Of a DNA stretch of 52,358 nucleotides, positions 27,523-37,734 are shown piece after piece. This DNA comes from Bacteroidia bacterium (GTDB lineage: Bacteria > Bacteroidota > Bacteroidia > Bacteroidales > VadinHA17). The notes beneath the pieces were generated by a model. That model did not search any database and had not been told where the DNA came from. It saw nothing but the letters and a program-made list of their open reading frames with translations. The stretch lies in the NCBI GenBank assembly GCA_026391475.1, contig JAPLED010000127.1, positions 1 to 52,358 on the forward strand. The letters run 5' to 3'. The position numbers and the translations under genes are program-made. The first letter of the stretch is position 1. Every line of letters begins with the position of its first letter.

Positions 27523-27582
27523 TAATTTTGCTTTTCCTGAATATTTTTATTTGCTTTGTGTCATTATATTTTGGTGGAAAAA

Positions 27583-27625
27583 TTTGTGCTGATTGCAACC
27601 ACAGGAAAAAAATGCTAAACCGCGG
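27583..27625 (+). promoter_or_regulatory. Candidate compact SAM-II-type riboswitch in the metK leader
   Basis: Between a promoter-like TTTG/TATATTTTG region (27551-27573) and metK the leader reads TTGTGCTGATTGCAACCACA, then a run of A and TGCTAAACCGCGG. A short stem TGTG/CACA encloses CTGATT and GCAAC, and GCTAAA follows after an A-rich linker; GCA in the loop can pair with TGC downstream to form a pseudoknot. CTGATT, GCA-CCAC and GCTAAA in this order are the conserved core of the SAM-II class, and metK makes SAM. The loop is shorter than in described SAM-II RNAs, so this is a candidate only. No terminator follows; control would have to be at translation. Confidence 0.45.
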
Positions 27626-27692
27626 ATAATTCCTTTTCCCAAATCAACCAAACTTCCACTCTGTTGTTTAATAATAAATTAATAATAGTGTT

Positions 27693-29036
27693 ATGGGATA
27701 TTTATTTACTTCCGAATCAGTTTCCGAAGGCCACCCCGATAAGGTAGCCGATCAGATATCAGACGCCTTACTTGATGAATTCCTTCGCTGGGATCCGGAA
27801 TCAAAGGTTGCCTGCGAGACATTTGTAACAACAGGACTCGTTGTTTGCGGTGGTGAAGTCCGTACAACAGGATGGGTGGATGTACAGGAGACTGCCCGAA
27901 AAGTAATTCGCAACATTGGCTATACAAAAGCGGAATACCGTTTTGATTGCGATTCGTGTGGTGTTATCTCTACCATTCATGAGCAATCGAGCGATATTAA
28001 CCAGGGTGTTGTTCGGGAAAAGCCTGAAGAACAGGGTGCAGGCGACCAGGGAATGATGTTCGGCTATGCATGCCGCGAAATGGATAATTATATGCCCCTG
28101 ACTATTGACCTGTCACACTTGCTGCTCCAGGAACTTGCAGCAATAAGGCACGAAGGGAAACAGATGAAATACCTAAGACCTGACAGCAAATCTCAGGTTA
28201 CTGTTGAATATGATGACAATAATAAACCTGTCAGGATTGATACAATTGTTATTAGTACACAGCATGATGAATTTATTCTTTCTAAAAATAAATCCTACGC
28301 TTCTGAAAAAGCTGCAGAAAAAGCTATGCAGGACAAGATTGGTGAAGACATTAAGAAAATTCTCATACCTAAGGTAAAGAAACTTTTACCGGCAAGGGTT
28401 CAAAGGCTGTTCAACAGTAATTTCAGACTTCTTGTCAATCCCACCGGGAAATTTGTTATCGGCGGCCCTCATGGCGACACTGGGCTGACAGGCCGCAAGA
28501 TTATTGTTGATACTTATGGCGGTCATGGTGCCCATGGCGGTGGTGCGTTCTCAGGAAAGGACTCATCAAAGGTTGACAGATCGGCAGCATATGCAGCACG
28601 GCATATTGCAAAAAATATGGTGGCAGCCGGCGTTTGCGATCAGGCACTGATACAGGTAGCTTATGCCATTGGAGTTGCCCAACCCGTTGGTTTATACATT
28701 AATACGTACGGAACAGCTAAAATAAAAGACAGTAAAGGCAAATTGCTCTCCGACGGAGAGATTGCATTAAAGATCAATAAACTGTTCGATATGCGTCCTT
28801 ACTCCATCGTTCAGCGTTTCGGACTGAAAAATCCGGTGTTCCTTTCAACTGCCTCATACGGGCATTTTGGTCGCGATTCTGCAGTTAAAAATGTTGAGGT
28901 ATATTATGAAGTACCCGGTAGCAAACCAAAAGTTGTGAGTGGTAATGGCAAAAAAGTTTATCTCAAAAAAGTTGAATTCTTTGCATGGGAAAAACTGGAT
29001 TATGTTGATAAAATTAAGAAGGCGTTTAAGTTATAG
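27693..29036 (+). CDS. metK: S-adenosylmethionine synthetase
   Basis: Makes S-adenosylmethionine from methionine and ATP. 447 residues, longer than the about 385 of E. coli MetK, as is usual in Bacteroidetes, with the extra length in the middle (around [10 protein letters not shown] to [14 protein letters not shown]) and near the C-terminus. Signatures: [20 protein letters not shown] at the start, [12 protein letters not shown] near residue 115, and [20 protein letters not shown] followed by [18 protein letters not shown]. It is preceded by a 170-base leader with a candidate SAM-sensing RNA and converges on the methionine operon, separated by a palindromic element. Confidence 0.97.
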
Positions 29037-29189: not shown

Positions 29190-30143
29190 CTAAAACGAAG
29201 CCTTTACGATCCTTGCTACATTATCGGAACGGCCCAGTGTGTAATAGTGAATACCCGGAACACCCTCTTTTATAAGCTCTTTCGATTGCATGGTTGCCCA
29301 TTCAATTCCTACTTCACGGGCTTCTTTGTCAGTTTTACATTTTTGTACTGCTGCCACAAGGTCGTTTGGCAGATCAATATGAAAAGCCTGGGGCAATAAT
29401 TTGATATCGTTCATGGCAGATATGGGTTTTATCCCGGCAATAATCGGGACAGCGATCCCTACCTTCCTGCACTCATCCCTGAACCTGCAAAACTTCCGGT
29501 TATCAAAAAACATCTGGGTAACGATGTAGCTTGCTCCCGATTCAACCTTCTGCTTAAGATTTTCAATATCCATCTGTCTGTTCGGCGCCTCAAAATGCTT
29601 TTCCGGATAACCGGCAACTCCTATACAAAAATTTGTCGGGGAGGTATCTTCAAGCGATTCTTCAAGGTACTTTCCATTATTCATATTGGTTATCTGTCTG
29701 ACCAGCTCATCAGCATTCGTATGACCATCCTTCTCCGCAATAAACCGGCGGTTCCCCTTTTGAGGGTCGCCCCGAAGGGCCAGGACATCATCAATACCAA
29801 GAAAATTCATTTCAATAAGCACATTCTCAGTCTCTTCTTTCGAAAAACCGCCGCAGAGGATATGCGGAACCACAGTTATATTGTATTTGTATTTTACTGC
29901 AGCAGCCAATGCAATTGTTCCCGGCCTGATACGGACTACCCTTTTCTCAATGAGACCGTCGGGTCTTTCATAATATGTTGTCTCATTACGATGCGAAGTA
30001 AAATTTATATATGCCGGATTAAATTCAATCAGCCTGTCAATGGTTGTATAAATTCTTTCAATGCTATGCCCTTTAAGCGGTGGAAGTAATTCAAAAGTGA
30101 ACAATGACCCACCGGCATTTTTAATCTTATCTATAACACTCAT
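29190..30143 (-). CDS. metF: Methylenetetrahydrofolate reductase
   Basis: About 317 residues of the MetF family, a flavin-dependent TIM barrel that makes 5-methyl-tetrahydrofolate, the methyl donor of methionine synthase. Recognisable blocks are FTFELLPPLKG near the N-terminus, the NITVVPHILCGG strand, LALRGDPQKG (folate/FAD region) and GIKPISAMND. Last gene of the methionine operon: its start lies 10 bases after the metH stop. The frame is open nine codons further upstream into metH, but ATG 30143 (MSVIDKIKNAGG) is the natural start. Confidence 0.95.
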   Translation of the reverse strand: MSVIDKIKNAGGSLFTFELLPPLKGHSIERIYTTIDRLIEFNPAYINFTSHRNETTYYERPDGLIEKRVVRIRPGTIALAAAVKYKYNITVVPHILCGGFSKEETENVLIEMNFLGIDDVLALRGDPQKGNRRFIAEKDGHTNADELVRQITNMNNGKYLEESLEDTSPTNFCIGVAGYPEKHFEAPNRQMDIENLKQKVESGASYIVTQMFFDNRKFCRFRDECRKVGIAVPIIAGIKPISAMNDIKLLPQAFHIDLPNDLVAAVQKCKTDKEAREVGIEWATMQSKELIKEGVPGIHYYTLGRSDNVARIVKASF

Positions 30144-30153
30144 TATTTTAAAA

Positions 30154-33100
30154 TCATAAGTTAGGAGCAAGCCATCTGGCCGCTTCGTTAATAGTCATAT
30201 TTTTACGTAAAGCATAATCTTTCAACTGGTCAGGGCCTATCTTCCCAATATTAAAATAGGTTGAACCGGGATGTGCAAAAAAGTAGCCGCTTACTGATGC
30301 AGGTGGTACCATTGCAAAGTTTTCTGTGAGTTCGGCTCCAATTGCTTTTTCTGCTCCGAGAAGGTTAAAGAGAACCCGTTTTTCAGTATGATCCGGACAT
30401 GCGGGATAGCCCGGTGCCGGTCTTATCCCCTTATACTTCAGCTTCAGAAGCTCTTCAATCGGAAAATTCTCTTGAACTGCATAACCCCAGTATTCCCTTC
30501 GTATCTTCTCATGAAGCCATTCAGCTATCGCTTCAGCCAGGCGGTCGCTCAGAATCCTGATCATTATTGTTGCATAATCATCATCTTTGTATCTGCCCAG
30601 AGCCACATTATCAAGAGCTGCAGTCACAACAAAGGCTCCGATGTTATCAGTTAATCCGGTAGTTTCAGGGGCAATATAATCGGAAAGTGAGAGATTGGGG
30701 ACACCCTTCTCTTTTGTCTCCTGGTTCCTTAAAAACCTGAAGACTGATTTTATTTCCTTTTTACTTTTATCCGAAAAGACCTTTACATCATCACCCTCCG
30801 AAACCGCAGGGAATAATCCAAACACTGCCCTTGCTTCCAGAAGCTTTTCGTCAATAATCTTTTTCAGATACATCTGAGCATCATCAAACAACTTCTTTGC
30901 CTCAACTCCTTTCACAGGATCACTGAAGATTGCCGGGTATTTGCCCGATAACTTCCATGCAAAGAAAAAGAAGGTCCAGTCTATGTAACCCACAAGCTCA
31001 TTAATATCTATTCCATGCAAAACATGAAGGCCGGGTTTTTCCGGTTCAAAAAGCTTAATAGTCTGCCAGTCGGTAACATATTTATTCTTTCTTGCTTCTC
31101 TTATTGAAAGAAGTTTCTTTTCAGTCTGTCGGGAACTATGGTCTTCCCTCATCTTTTTATACTTATCTCTTATTGCAGATACATACCCGCTGTTATCTTT
31201 CTGAAGAAGGCCGGAAAGAACTCCTGCTGCTTTTGATGCATCCTTGACATGAATAACGGAATTTGAATATGCAGGTGCAACTTTAACTGCGGCATGTATC
31301 TCCGAGGTTGTTGCTCCTCCGATAAGCAAGGGAAGTGTGATTTTTCTCCGCTCCATCTCCGCAGCAACATGAACCATCTCTTCAAGCGAAGGTGTAATTA
31401 ATCCGCTTAAACCGATAAAATCAACATTTTCCTTTATTGCGGTGTCAATGATCTTTTCAGCAGGTACCATAACTCCGAGATCGATTATCTCATAGTTATT
31501 ACACGATAATACCACCCCGACAATATTCTTTCCGATATCATGAACATCACCCTTTACGGTTGCGAGAAGGACCCTTCCGGCTGTTTTTTTCTCCTGCCCT
31601 TCGCTCTCTTTTTCTATATATGGTGCCAGCTTCGACACAGCTTTTTTCATCACCCTTGCACTCTTAACCACTTGTGGAAGGAACATCTTTCCTGATCCAA
31701 AAAGATCTCCCACCTCGTTCATCCCTCCCATGAGCGGACCTTCAATCAATTCAATTGACCGCCTGAAAAGAGACCGTGCCTCTTCAACATCATTCTCAAT
31801 AAATTCATCGAGGCCCCTGATAAGAGAATGCTTAATACGATCCACAACCGGAAGCAGACGCCATGCATCTTCCTTCTCCTCCTTCTTCCCCTCATTCTTT
31901 ATACCCTCGGCAAATTTCACAAGCCGTTCTGTAGAATCCTTTCTGCGGTTAAGTATCACATCTTCTGTAAGCTGAAGAAGGTCCGGCTGTATTTCAGTGT
32001 AAACCTGCAACATGCCAGGATTAACAATGCCCATATCAAGTCCGGCTTTAATAGCATGGAACAGGAATACCGAGTGCATTGCTTCACGAACCTTGTCAGT
32101 ACCACGGAATGAAAATGAAAGGTTGCTGATTCCTCCACTCACCCTGGAATACGGAAGATTCTGCTTAATCCATTCTGTTGCCCGGATGAAATTAACAGCA
32201 TAGTTGTTGTGTTCTTCTATACCGGTGGCAACTGCCAGGACATTCGGATCGAATATTATATCTTCCGGAGGAAATCCCAGCTTATCCACAAGGAGGCGAT
32301 AGGATCTTTCAGCTACATTGATTTTTCTGTCAAATGTGTCGGCCTGACCTTTGTCATCAAATAACATAACGACAGCAGCAGCCCCGTATTTCCTGATTTT
32401 ACGGGCATGTGCCAGAAACACCTCTTCTCCTTCCTTCAGACTAATGGAATTTACAACCGACTTCCCCTGGATACATTTAAGTGCCGACTCAATAACGTTC
32501 CAGCGCGAAGAATCGATCATCAACGGTAGCTTCGAGATATCGGGTTCGGCCATGATAAGATTCACAAACCTTATCATTGCTTTTTCCGAATCAAGCATAG
32601 CCTCATCCATGCAGATATCAATTACCTGTGCCCCTCCCTCAACCTGGTTTCTTGCGATGGCAAGAGCCTCATCATATTTTTCTTCCCTTATCAGCCTTGC
32701 AAACTTAATTGATCCTGATACGTTGGTACGCTCACCGACATTTACGAAGTTTGTTTCAGGTGTTATTGTCAGAACCTCCAGTCCGCTTAATCTTGTATAT
32801 TTCTTAATGGCAGGTTTAACCCTCGGTTTGTATTGTTTTGAAACCTCAGCGATTTTTTGGATGTGAAGAGGTGTTGTACCGCAGCAACCTCCTATTATGT
32901 TTACCCATCCCTCTTTCATAAAATCTTCTGCAATTGAAGCCATAAATGTTGCAGACTGATCATATTCGCCAAACTGGTTTGGCAGACCGGCATTAGGATG
33001 AACCGAAACATAAAATCCCGATTTCGAAGATAATTCCTCAACAAATGGCCGCAGCTGTTCTGCTCCAAGAGCACAGTTAAGACCTATGCTGAATAGAGGA

Positions 33101-33807
33101 AAATGCGAAACAGAAACCATGAATGCTTCGAGTGTCTGACCGGTTAAAGTCCTTCCGCTGGCATCAGTAATTGTACCTGAAACCATTACCGGCAACCGGA
33201 TCCCTTTTTCTTCAAAGACAGTATCAATCGCAAATAGAGCAGCCTTGCAATTAAGAACATCAAATATTGTTTCTACCAGCAAAATATGGACTCCTCCGTC
33301 AATCAAACCCCTTGTCTGCTCGGAATATGCTTCAACAAGTGCATCAAAAGTGATCGCCCTGGCTCCGGGGTCATTAACATCCGACGACATTGAAGCCGTA
33401 CGATTGGTTGGTCCGAGAGTACCGGCGATAAAATGCTCTGCCGGTTCCGGAGAATTTTCATATCCGGTAATTGCTTCCGCAGCCAGTCGTGCTGACCGAA
33501 GATTCATATTATAAACCTGGCTCTCCATACCATAATCGGACATGGATATTCTGTTGGAATTAAACGTGTTTGTGGTAATAATATCTGCTCCTGCTTCGAG
33601 ATACTCCCTGTGAATACCTTTTATTATCTCCGGCTTTGTAAGGGATAACAGATCATTATTCCCCTTTTGGAGCATTGGATGATCTTTAAACTCATCTCCA
33701 CGGTAATCGTTTTCCTGAAGCTTATGTTTCTGGATCATTGTCCCCATTGCGCCATCGAGGATCAATATCTTTTCGCGGATTACAACTTCAAGTGAATTTT
33801 TCATCAT
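30154..33807 (-). CDS. metH: Cobalamin-dependent methionine synthase
   Basis: Transfers the methyl group from 5-methyl-tetrahydrofolate via cobalamin to homocysteine. 1217 residues with all four modules: homocysteine-binding barrel ([10 protein letters not shown] at the start; zinc cysteines in GLNCALG and GGCCGTTP), pterin-binding barrel ([18 protein letters not shown]), cobalamin cap and B12-binding domain ([14 protein letters not shown] with the axial histidine, [13 protein letters not shown]), and the SAM-dependent reactivation domain ([15 protein letters not shown]). The start overlaps the hom stop by four bases. Its SAM-requiring reactivation fits the SAM-sensing leader of the operon. 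Needs B12 supply from elsewhere. Confidence 0.97.
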
Positions 33808-35006
33808 TTTATTCCTTTTCTTCCGGTGTTCACTATAAAAACATCCAGATTACGAAGTTGTTCCCGCAAAGCGTAAAGTCTTTCAAGATTTACAACTCCG
33901 ATCACATATTTATAAAATCTCCCGCTAAAGTATTCCGACACTTCCTCAAATCCAAATAATTCCCTGTCCTTTTCATCTTTGTACCTTAAGTATACCTCCA
34001 GTTTGTAGTCGCGGGTGTAGTTTGAGACCGTTCCCTGCTGAAACTTTTTATATTCATATCTGTAACCATATGAGTTTGCTGAGATGTCTGAAAGTACGGC
34101 GCTTCCGGTTGCATGTCCTCCTGCTCCCTTCCCGCTGAAAAATTGTTTGTCTGCAAATGCAGCCTCTGCAATTACTCCATTATACTCATTATCCACGTTA
34201 TAGAGAAATTTGTCGGAAGAGATAAACCTTGGAAGAACAAAGCTTGTTATTGTATTCTCATTTGTCTTGCCGACATAAGGTACCAGTTTGATCTTATATC
34301 CCTTTTCTTTAGCATACTGGATATCAAATTTTGAAATTGTATTGATGCCATAATGAAAGACTTCCTCCGGTTCAAGAAAGAGGCCGTAAGCATGACCTGT
34401 AATTATACACAGCTTGTACTTTGCATCCCAGCCTTCAACATCAAGGGTCGGATCTGATTCTGCAAAACCCTTTTCCTGAGCTTCTTTCAAAGCTTCTGAA
34501 TAAGGAATCCCGTCGTTATGCATTTTTGTCAGAATATAATTTGTGGTTCCGTTCAGGATACCACGCAAAGAGTAGAGCAGTTCATTATCATAATATTCCT
34601 CAAGATTTCTGATTATGGGAATGCTTGCTCCGGCTGAGGCTTCATAGAGCAGGGATACCTTATACTTTCCCTGCATCTCAACAAGCTCCTTAAAATGTTT
34701 TGCCACCATCATCTTGTTGGCAGTCACAACGTTTTTCCCGCTTTTCATCGCTGTGGTCACAATACTGAATGCCTCGTCTGCATCATTAATAAGCTCAACA
34801 ACCAGGTTGATAGAGGGATCATTCAGGATATCATTCTTGTCAAAGGTGAAATTCGACATCGGGATCCTTCTCGTTTTTGTGCGATCCTTAACGCATATCT
34901 TTACAATATCGGCCTTAAAACCTTTGCTGCTGTTCAGTACGTCATGAAGTCCCTGTCCAACGCATCCATAGCCGAATAATCCTATTTGTAATTTTTCTTG
35001 TGTCAT
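33804..35006 (-). CDS. hom: Homoserine dehydrogenase
   Basis: Reduces aspartate semialdehyde to homoserine, the branch-point substrate for methionine and threonine. 400 residues. NAD(P)-binding motif [12 protein letters not shown] at the N-terminus; catalytic-domain blocks [48 protein letters not shown] (seen as [17 protein letters not shown]) and [13 protein letters not shown]. The C-terminal part after residue about 330 is not a clear ACT domain, so threonine feedback is doubtful. Placement inside a metY-metX-metH-metF operon suggests a copy dedicated to methionine. It overlaps metH by four bases; 108 bases, including a GC-rich repeat, separate it from metX. Confidence 0.92.
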
Positions 35007-35114: not shown

Positions 35115-36127
35115 TTAATCTCTATCCCAGAATTTTCTGATGGCTTCTGTTACCAATTCTGATTCTATCAGGAATCCGTCGTGTCCATAAAATGAGTCTA
35201 TTTCAACATATTGTGCATCCGGGATATTTGCCGCAACATACTTCTGTTCCTCAACCGGAAAAAGAATATCCGAGGTAATGCCAATGCAGAGAGTTTTTGC
35301 CTTTACACTGCTGAGAGCTTTGGCTGTTCCCCCTCTTCCTCTGCCAATGTTGTGTGTGTCAGAGAGGCAAACCAGGCTGTAATAAGAGTATGGGTTGAAT
35401 CTGTTAACAAGCTTATCTCCCTGGTAAGCCTGATAAGAAGAAGCTTTAAAAGAGGAAATTTTCTCATCATCCTGCTCAACCTGTGTCCGGTTATAGGCAG
35501 CAGGATTCCGGTAACTAAGCAGAGCAATAGCTCTGGCGGCTTTCAATCCTTTTTTACCACCCTCCGGATCATTCGCTGTAAATGATTGGTCTGCTTCCAT
35601 AGCAAGACGCTGCGACTCACTGAATGCAATTGCCCATGGTGACTGCCTGGCACTTGATGCGACAAATGCCAGCCTGTTTACAATTTCGGGATACATAATA
35701 CTATACTCCAGCGATTGAAATCCGCCAATTGAGGCTCCTATTATAGTATGTATATGTTTAATATTCAAATGTTTCCTGAGTATTTCATGAACATTTACCA
35801 GATCTCTGATAGTAATCAATGGAAAATCCTTCAGCCATGGACTACCAGTGCCCGGATTTACCGAAGCCGGACCAGTAGTCCCATAACAAGACCCCAGCAC
35901 ATTTGCACATACAATAAAGTATTTCTCCGGATCAAAAAGAAGACCATTCCCTACCATGCCCGGCCACCACGATTCCACATCAGAGTTGGCGGTGAGGGCA
36001 TGACAAACCCAAATGACATTATCTGCCTCACTGTTCAACTTTCCCCATGTGCTATACACTATTTCCAGAGCCGGTAAAACCGTTCCTGTCTCTGTTATAA
36101 AAGGTTGATTATATTTTAGTGTATCCA

Positions 36128-36128
<1 letters not shown>
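35115..36128 (-). CDS. metX: Homoserine O-acetyltransferase
   Basis: Activates homoserine as O-acetylhomoserine for direct sulfhydrylation. 337 residues, alpha/beta-hydrolase fold. Landmarks: ETGTVLPALEIVYSTWG and NVIWVCHALTANSD at the N-terminus, the nucleophile elbow GASIGGFQSLEYS (Ser), ITSDILFPVEEQ with the catalytic Asp, and YGHDGFLIE with the catalytic His. Acetyl versus succinyl specificity cannot be proven by eye, but the pairing with an O-acetylhomoserine sulfhydrylase gene supports acetyl. Its ATG shares one base with the metY stop. Confidence 0.93.
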
Positions 36129-37498
<1,370 letters not shown>

Positions 37499-37537
37499 CG
37501 TTTAACTTGGAAAATGTCTGATTGCAAATCAAAGCTT

Positions 37538-37606
37538 TTACCGGCACATGCACATAGGCATGAGCGGCATGATAAAGTTGTTGTGTGTCAGATGAATTGA
37601 ATTCAT
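37538..37606 (-). CDS. 22-codon Met/Cys-rich leader peptide of the methionine operon
   Basis: An ATG-initiated minus-strand frame starts 15 bases after the 3' end of the riboswitch aptamer and ends with TAA 105 bases before metY. The encoded peptide begins MNSIHLTHNN and ends MPLMPMCMCR: four Met and two Cys among its last ten residues, plus the start Met. That composition, immediately before an operon making homocysteine and methionine, is what a translation-sensing leader peptide looks like (as known for trp and his leaders). The peptide is too short to judge by homology; expression is inferred. Confidence 0.55.
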   Translation of the reverse strand: MNSIHLTHNNFIMPLMPMCMCR

Positions 37607-37621
37607 TTTTTTTGTGTTAAA

Positions 37622-37734
37622 TTTTTATCATCTCCCGGCTTTCCGGGATTAGGTTTTGGCACCGTTCTCCTAAACTGCAGGATTGGTTGCCAGGGTTTCG
37701 CAGAGCCTAATCTCTTCACCCTTCTTAATAAAAA
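37622..37734 (-). promoter_or_regulatory. SAM-I (S-box) riboswitch
   Basis: Read on the minus strand, the leader has the S-box order of conserved elements: a P1 strand TTTTTATTA, GAAGAGATTAGGC, GCGAAACCCTGGCAACC (the P3/SAM-core signature GAAACC-x-GGCAACC), a variable stem CCTGCAGTTTAGG, GGTGCCAAAACCTAATCC, the P4 hairpin CCCGGAAAGCCGGG, then GAGATGATAAAAA closing P1. S-box RNAs bind S-adenosylmethionine and switch off methionine genes. There is no visible intrinsic terminator after it, so the expression platform is unclear; the short open frame begins 15 bases beyond P1. Confidence 0.9.

Follow-up and report, generated by a model that had tools for sequence, protein, structure and literature searches.

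Organisation of the met locus

The window, i.e. the whole stretch of 52,358 nucleotides that was analysed, encodes a methionine (met) operon on its minus strand. The first gene of this operon, metY (36128..37432, ATG at 37432), codes for an O-acetylhomoserine sulfhydrylase (PF01053, E 6.7e-126; TIGR01326 over its cut-off) and is followed by genes coding for a metX-like homoserine O-acyltransferase of the alpha/beta-hydrolase type (35115..36128; PF00561; best NCBIfam match TIGR01392, whose 352 bits fall below the cut-off of 500), a homoserine dehydrogenase (hom, 33804..35006; PF00742 and PF03447), the B12-dependent methionine synthase (metH, 30154..33807; PF02965, PF02574 and PF00809) and a metF-like methylenetetrahydrofolate reductase (MTHFR, 29190..30170; PF02219). 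These genes, as assigned by Pfam, are preceded by a SAM-I (S-box) riboswitch aptamer (37622..37734, minus strand), which is a full-length match to RF00162 in cmscan (72.6 bits, the gathering score being 44.4; E 3.7e-15; model positions 1-108) and the sole match to this model at E 0.001 or better in the 2.8-Mb genome. The divergent gene encodes a class I (C) tRNA synthetase by Pfam. The stretch that carries this SAM-I riboswitch before the met operon also carries a SAM-II riboswitch (27568-27628, plus strand, 52.8 bits), located ahead of an ORF (27693-29036) which we take from its motif to be metK.

Behind the SAM-I aptamer lies an A-rich spacer of 15 nt (37607..37621, minus strand), in which no Shine-Dalgarno-like sequence was seen by eye, and then a leader peptide ORF of 22 codons, MNSIHLTHNNFIMPLMPMCMCR* (37538..37606, minus strand), recognised by its sequence, its conservation in the family and its pN/pS. 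The leader core Met-Pro-Met-Cys-Met, AUGCCUAUGUGCAUG (37547..37561), conforms to the pattern MPMxM shared by 58 leaders of the window's family. Among 702 ATG frames of 10-40 amino acids in the window, a count in which the leader is scored twice through a nested start, it alone has at least six Met/Cys in its last ten residues, for which the chance per frame is 1.3e-7 at the codon usage of the window. The region from the end of the leader to the metY ATG is predicted to form two hairpins, namely hairpin A (37495..37544, minus strand), which includes the final codons of the leader and runs past its stop, and hairpin B (37456..37493, minus strand), which lies ahead of metY and has no U-tract behind it. 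No terminator-like sites are found on the minus strand between 37400 and 37900. An earlier note, made from the letters of this DNA, had described a clear S-box, a 22-codon frame 15 bases past it ending in MPLMPMCMCR, a hairpin followed by metY, a riboswitch without a terminator of its own and a divergent cysS, and these features are borne out here.

Conservation of the leader ORF in the family of the window

S-boxes are present in 71 of the 117 genomes of the window's family. A leader ORF containing MPMxM occurs in 58 of the 77 S-box loci read, a denominator in which two sub-threshold matches (L076 and L077) were kept, and in 57 of the 71 genomes. These ORFs range from 20 to 39 codons in length, yet all 58 start 8-16 nt past the aptamer, ATGs having been sought within the first 20 nt past it. 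Met16, Pro17, Met18 and Met20 are found in 58/58 leaders, MPMxM being the rule by which they were selected; the use of CCT for Pro17 (58/58) and of C as the third base of codon 19 (NNC in 58/58) was not selected for. Residue 19 is Cys in 41 leaders, Gly in six, Arg in six and Asp in five. When all pairs of the 41 distinct 22-codon ORFs are compared over codons 2-16, pN/pS in the leader frame is 0.39, falling to 0.19 and 0.11 for closer pairs, while the other two frames give 1.0-4.6. The leader is no chance frame, because 58 of the 77 family S-box loci carry one under protein-level selection, and by this evidence it is a translated, selected peptide gene.

The conservation in relatives which the earlier note had called for thus extends to the frame, its start position after the S-box, its Met codons and a coding signature. 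Of the Met and Cys codons that the note pointed to, the Met codons are fixed together with one Pro codon, and the two Cys codons vary among relatives. Since Met is conserved and Cys optional, tRNA(Met) is likelier than tRNA(Cys) to be the cue in this family.

Within the 22-codon group, ORFs that share the modal residue all use one and the same codon at positions 8 (CAC 23/23), 9 (AAC 27/27), 17 (CCT 43/43) and 19 (TGC 31/31), unlike positions such as 6, 7, 10-12 and 14, where synonymous codons occur. Judged from these alignments, the nucleotide-level freeze of Pro17 CCT and of codon 19 is more than a plain Met-codon attenuator would need.

The metY gene was located behind 45 of the 58 family leaders. 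The tie between leader and metY is not strict, as the other 13 leaders precede genes other than a located metY, including metH, aspartate-kinase-like and homocysteine-biosynthesis genes; in two of these 13 loci (L021 and L053) metY sequence is visible which the script did not locate. L053 has an intact S-box and leader, an apparent interruption of metY soon after its start, and hom following. Three of the 19 family loci without MPMxM contain other Met/Cys-rich ORFs (L003, L031 and L075 ending SMIMCCMCCCCMC), and the remainder, which include the two sub-threshold S-box matches, are without a Met/Cys-rich ORF. L038, an S-box-metY locus, retains an ORF and lacks the motif. MPMxM is likewise absent from L011 and L015, where metH itself starts 2 nt past the aptamer, making SAM control of an adjacent start codon plausible in this lineage. 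Seven further S-boxes (L033, L046, L048, L055, L061, L062 and L065) are situated about 95 nt before a homocysteine-biosynthesis gene, assigned by motif in all seven and checked against PF01837 for L046, and have no Met/Cys leader.

Met- and Cys-rich leaders in other lineages

A combined pattern of S-box end and MPMxM leader was found at 44 loci in 84,980 species genomes. Two of these (L127 and L139) were rejected as chance matches inside coding genes. The 42 in-frame leaders, many of them on the same contigs as the family loci, all occur in records titled Bacteroidales, Bacteroidia, Bacteroidetes or Bacteroidota MAGs. ATGCCTATGNNCATG alone is present in 76 of 395 genomes of the class, exceeding a reversed-pattern control.

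The other families of the class were represented by 110 S-box loci, read from about 150 among the matches listed, best-scoring ones among which metY loci may be under-represented. Eleven of the 110 have a Met/Cys-rich short ORF ahead of the gene, and these ORFs are concentrated at metY (8/13 metY loci, assigned by motif, against 3/97 others; Fisher p 4.5e-7, with the loci treated as independent although their kinship inflates the counts); five of the 13 metY loci are without a Met/Cys run. The start lies 2-19 nt past the S-box in eight of the 11 ORFs and 92-132 nt past it in L251, L107 and L241, while eight metY leaders of this draw (L212, L228, L229, L232, L242, L254, L257 and L261) start 7-10 nt past the S-box. 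The ORF of L256, 19 nt past its S-box, ends in PCCCCCCC* and stands ahead of a PAPS reductase gene of sulfate assimilation, so that poly-Cys leaders are not confined to metY. The ORFs of L107 and L241, 103 and 132 nt past the S-box with the ends RMCMPVNI* and RMCMELCCSS*, precede a gene which by eye resembles a SusC/TonB-type receptor, and could possibly represent a further class of Met/Cys leader.

A second family of the class was searched with a pattern of S-box end and ATG that itself requires the ATG 4-14 nt past the S-box. This requirement accounts in part for the short start distances of the sample, although 7-10 nt is also seen in the class draw, which was free of it. The pattern matched in 70 of 151 genomes, some by chance, and of 50 loci read 45 proved to be an S-box with an ORF, five being dropped for the absence of CAACC upstream of the pattern. 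At least three Cys occur in the last six residues of 28 of the 36 metY leaders, eight having fewer, and in none of the nine that precede metX, hom or unassigned genes (p 2.7e-5, again with loci taken as independent; the two samples overlap, L285, L290 and L291 being identical with L257, L242 and L261 of the class draw). Typical ends are CMCMCCCCC*, GCICMCCCCC* and RCCCMCMCCC*, and Cys dominates in this family. Codons for Cys are mixed in the last ten positions (TGT 87, TGC 81), so it is the amino acid that is preserved.

The concentration of these runs at metY bears on an improbable reading in which the ORF merely couples the riboswitch to metY, through Rho protection or by opening the metY start, and the Met/Cys codons have no sensing role. 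Such coupling would account for start codons being kept where the Met/Cys run is absent (L038, L040 and several metX and hom loci), but it leaves unexplained the tie of the runs to metY in two partly overlapping samples, and the return of the same two amino acids in varied sequences. It is very improbable that the leader instead encodes a small Met/Cys-rich peptide with a function of its own, such as metal binding. Protein-level selection would suit such a product, as would the ability of MxM and Cys runs to bind copper(I); its fixed place behind the S-box, mostly before metY, the lack of conservation of the end sequence between lineages and the nil result of an NCBIfam comparison with three leader peptides speak against it.

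Within the window's order, 28 metY loci of other families were collected, of which 18 were scanned against Rfam and seven have an S-box. An ATG follows 9-15 nt past the S-box in 7/7, and Met-x-Met (MSM, MGM, MDM or MRM) stands near the leader end in 5/7. At L329 the leader MNATTLHTPLSAPATMPMCMCCCGNHS (with MPMCMCCCG) stands alone at 175 to 91 nt before metY, no S-box reaching the gathering threshold there, and the S-box and peptide modules can thus part. Among 27 new loci from a phylum-wide draw of best-scoring S-boxes, in which metY loci may be under-represented, the 23 that were parsed all lacked a Met/Cys-rich leader. The comparison with other leaders proposed in the earlier note reveals that other lineages carry Met/Cys runs of their own, some of them poly-Cys, in the equivalent position.

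This diversity weighs on a further reading, in which the Met-Pro-Met-x-Met end is an arrest peptide whose nascent chain senses a small molecule or the state of the ribosome, and slow decoding of Met has no part. The window's family lends it some credit, as MPMxM with one single Pro codon in 58/58 goes beyond what a codon run needs, and the residues ahead of MPMxM are conserved too. The ends of other lineages, however, differ at the same place (poly-Cys, MDM, MSM, MRM), as codon sensing predicts, and one genome (G083) carries both MPMCM and poly-Cys leaders. An arrest peptide is accordingly unlikely, although we leave it a small but real chance.

RNA structure and terminators

The 116-nt stretch of the window from the last leader codons to the metY ATG, which includes hairpins A and B, folds with a z of -1.45, modest when taken alone. 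Across loci, the 80 nt proximal to the stop are more structured than their dinucleotide shuffles, the mean z being -1.10 for the window's family (n=58) and -2.03 for the second family (n=35; one of 36 dropped), each with a se of 0.19, while controls inside metY give +0.30 and -0.29, respectively; kinship of the loci, which these shuffles treat as independent, inflates the counts. The predicted hairpins diverge widely in sequence between lineages, and their mutually exclusive pairing was seen by eye alone. RNAalifold, applied to an alignment of 35 loci that spans codon 13 to metY, returned four pairs in the MPMxM core as its sole consensus stem, for which reason structure was assessed for each locus separately. 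No shared distant partner of at least seven pairs was found for the leader core across the 58 loci.

Terminator-like sites between the leader stop and metY are at chance level, with 1/45 loci in the window's family (shuffles 1.2) and 3/36 in the second family (shuffles 1.1), as are those between the S-box and the leader stop (2/58; shuffles 1.0). The metH S-boxes of other families, taken as 49 loci in which the gene motif lies more than 60 nt from the S-box, have such sites in 17/49 (shuffles 1.9). Intrinsic termination behind the leader was rejected on these counts and on the lack of any site in the window. The leader was not filed as an attenuator of the transcriptional type, because terminator-like sites are absent from this region of the window and at chance level in both families.

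A helix that would exclude P1 is predicted between AGAUGA in the P1 3' strand (37628..37633, minus strand; left arm) and UCAUCU in leader codons 4-6 (37590..37595, minus strand; right arm). Pairing of the P1 3' strand with leader codons 2-9, mostly 4-6, over at least six contiguous pairs occurs in 45/58 loci, against a mean of 17.3 and a maximum of 25 in 200 rounds of codon-shuffled leaders, in a test framed after the fold was seen; an earlier form of this test gave a mean z of 0.87 in the window's family and a weak 0.36 in the second family. Where the modal residue is present, codon 4 is always ATT (29/29) and codon 5 always CAT (37/37), as this anti-P1 helix would require. Covariation is scant, with 14 distinct combinations in the 22-codon group and a nearly invariant left arm, and kinship of the loci inflates these pairing counts and those of the terminator scan as well.

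The anti-P1 helix could also serve the opposite SAM logic, in which at low SAM it blocks the leader, translation of the leader turns metY off, and either low SAM or a stalled ribosome leaves metY on. This OR gate offers a simple logic for a shortage of Met or SAM, and a right arm in codons 4-6 could hinder initiation. We nevertheless regard it as rather unlikely, for the helix is short and, in the window fold, the AUG remains in a sparsely paired loop of roughly 30 nt, and both the metH starts 2 nt past the aptamer at two family loci and the eight class-draw metY leaders 7-10 nt past the S-box fit a block by SAM-bound P1.

The frozen GCCUA within the Met-Pro-Met core has a complement, UAGGC, in the P2 loop of the aptamer. 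This complement is present in 58/58 family leader loci and in both other-family loci with GCCUAUG, as well as in 14/19 family loci without the motif and 15/110 loci of other families. Through this complementarity the leader RNA may touch the aptamer in the window's family.

A putative mechanism with two sensors in series

The best explanation for the arrangement described above, and in our view a probable one, is that SAM gates translation of the leader and that the Met/Cys codons then set the expression of metY. The SAM-I aptamer would thus have as its output the translation of the leader ORF 15 nt behind it, and not the switching of a terminator. With SAM bound, P1 would be closed and would abut the leader initiation region, so that the leader would go untranslated and the operon would be low. 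At low SAM, leader codons 3-6 would hold the P1 3' strand, the AUG would lie in an open A-rich loop, and ribosomes would enter the leader. Bacteroidota mostly do without Shine-Dalgarno sequences, and for this reason the accessibility of the leader start should be decisive. Ribosomes would then meet Met codons 16, 18 and 20, or in other lineages a Cys run, just ahead of the stop, stalling when charged tRNA(Met) or tRNA(Cys) is short and terminating when it is ample. The position of the ribosome would select which hairpin forms around or after the stop and consequently whether metY and the downstream genes are expressed, with translation of metY or Rho-dependent termination as the candidates for this last link.

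The earlier note had advanced a SAM-gated leader with a ribosome reading its Met/Cys codons. Its two sensors are supported by the comparative evidence; the logic of the gate and the step to metY we infer. Taken across lineages, the comparative evidence speaks strongly for two sensors in series, and the met operon very likely has two inputs, SAM and the availability of charged tRNA. The wider proposition, to which we give an even chance, is that in Bacteroidota a leader ORF coding for the cue amino acids has taken the place of a terminator behind the SAM-I aptamer. The result would be a two-input gate for free SAM and charged tRNA, in which evolution would have exchanged Met and Cys as the second input through changes to the final codons.

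If this is true, one short RNA would gauge how much SAM the pathway has delivered as its end product and how well its protein-building branch is supplied with Met- or Cys-tRNA, and the riboswitch would decide whether the second, ribosome-based sensor is read at all. The swapped codons in separate families would imply that the input amino acid can be re-specified by a few codon changes, and the system would be a natural and testable case of sensors in series. It would also explain the lack of a terminator and the distance between S-box and metY, which is about 180-280 nt in most loci read.

Comparison with known regulatory systems

The leader shares with other SAM-I (S-box) riboswitches (RF00162) a full-length aptamer and its siting before methionine genes, and differs from them in that signs of a terminator are absent and the adjoining start codon is that of a leader peptide, not of the first gene. 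Classical attenuators of the trp and his type consist of a short conserved ORF with codons for the regulated amino acid by its stop, located before a biosynthetic operon. The met leader likewise has a short ORF under coding selection with its cue codons near the stop and a biosynthetic operon behind it; unlike them, it has no sign of an intrinsic terminator, and its ORF start adjoins an aptamer. The polycysteine short ORFs of mycobacteria are reportedly leaderless, and we know of no riboswitch at these ORFs; the AUG of the met leader, in contrast, lies behind a complete aptamer, which argues against a leaderless start. In the accessible part of one paper, these mycobacterial ORFs are described as cysteine-responsive attenuators (PMC9094748, citing Canestrari et al. 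2020).

No SAM-I riboswitch with a leader peptide was found in the open-access library searched, subscription papers being mostly outside its scope, and the lack of a described system combining the two, as put forward in the earlier note, holds for the literature searched. The available sections of PMC2965389 and PMC1273637 treat SAM-I riboswitch and leader peptide apart. A survey of RNA regulons reports S-boxes in many phyla, and the term 'leader peptide' is absent from its text. Closer to the present lineage, the portions consulted of a flavobacterial transcriptome study and of a Bacteroides study give, respectively, clues for leader-peptide attenuation before amino-acid operons and short ORFs in long 5' UTRs. 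An excerpt on the SAM-II riboswitch of Sinorhizobium describes action on translation at a distance (PMC9373788).

Joint sensing of SAM and tRNA is known from other architectures. Tandem T-box and SAM riboswitches precede one operon in Bacillota, according to the accessible text of PMC12452182; SAM and tRNA sensing is shared with the met leader, and the tRNA sensor is a T-box RNA there and would be a leader peptide here. The SAM-I riboswitch of Xanthomonas binds uncharged initiator tRNA, which on the expression platform frees the Shine-Dalgarno sequence (PMC7270179, in the section available). It likewise reads SAM and a Met-tRNA signal; as far as that section goes, its second sensor is tRNA binding to the RNA and its output a Shine-Dalgarno switch, whereas the second sensor proposed here is a ribosome translating a peptide ORF, and no Shine-Dalgarno-like sequence was seen by eye.

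The nearest precedent found for a riboswitch joined to a leader peptide is the Salmonella mgtA leader, in which a Mg2+ sensor of the riboswitch type is combined with the proline-coding mgtL, the cue codons set transcription, mgtL bases join the sensor pairing and stem-loop B is an attenuator (PMC6460261, in its accessible part). Both leaders place a sensor and a cue-codon ORF in one RNA. From what that part describes, mgtA responds to Mg2+ and uses proline codons, while a SAM-I aptamer and Met/Cys codons are employed here; and whereas mgtL bases take part in the pairing of the sensor, the met leader has a complete aptamer upstream, with the ORF starting just behind it. Set beside these systems, a SAM-I riboswitch and a leader peptide in series would constitute a new combination of known parts.
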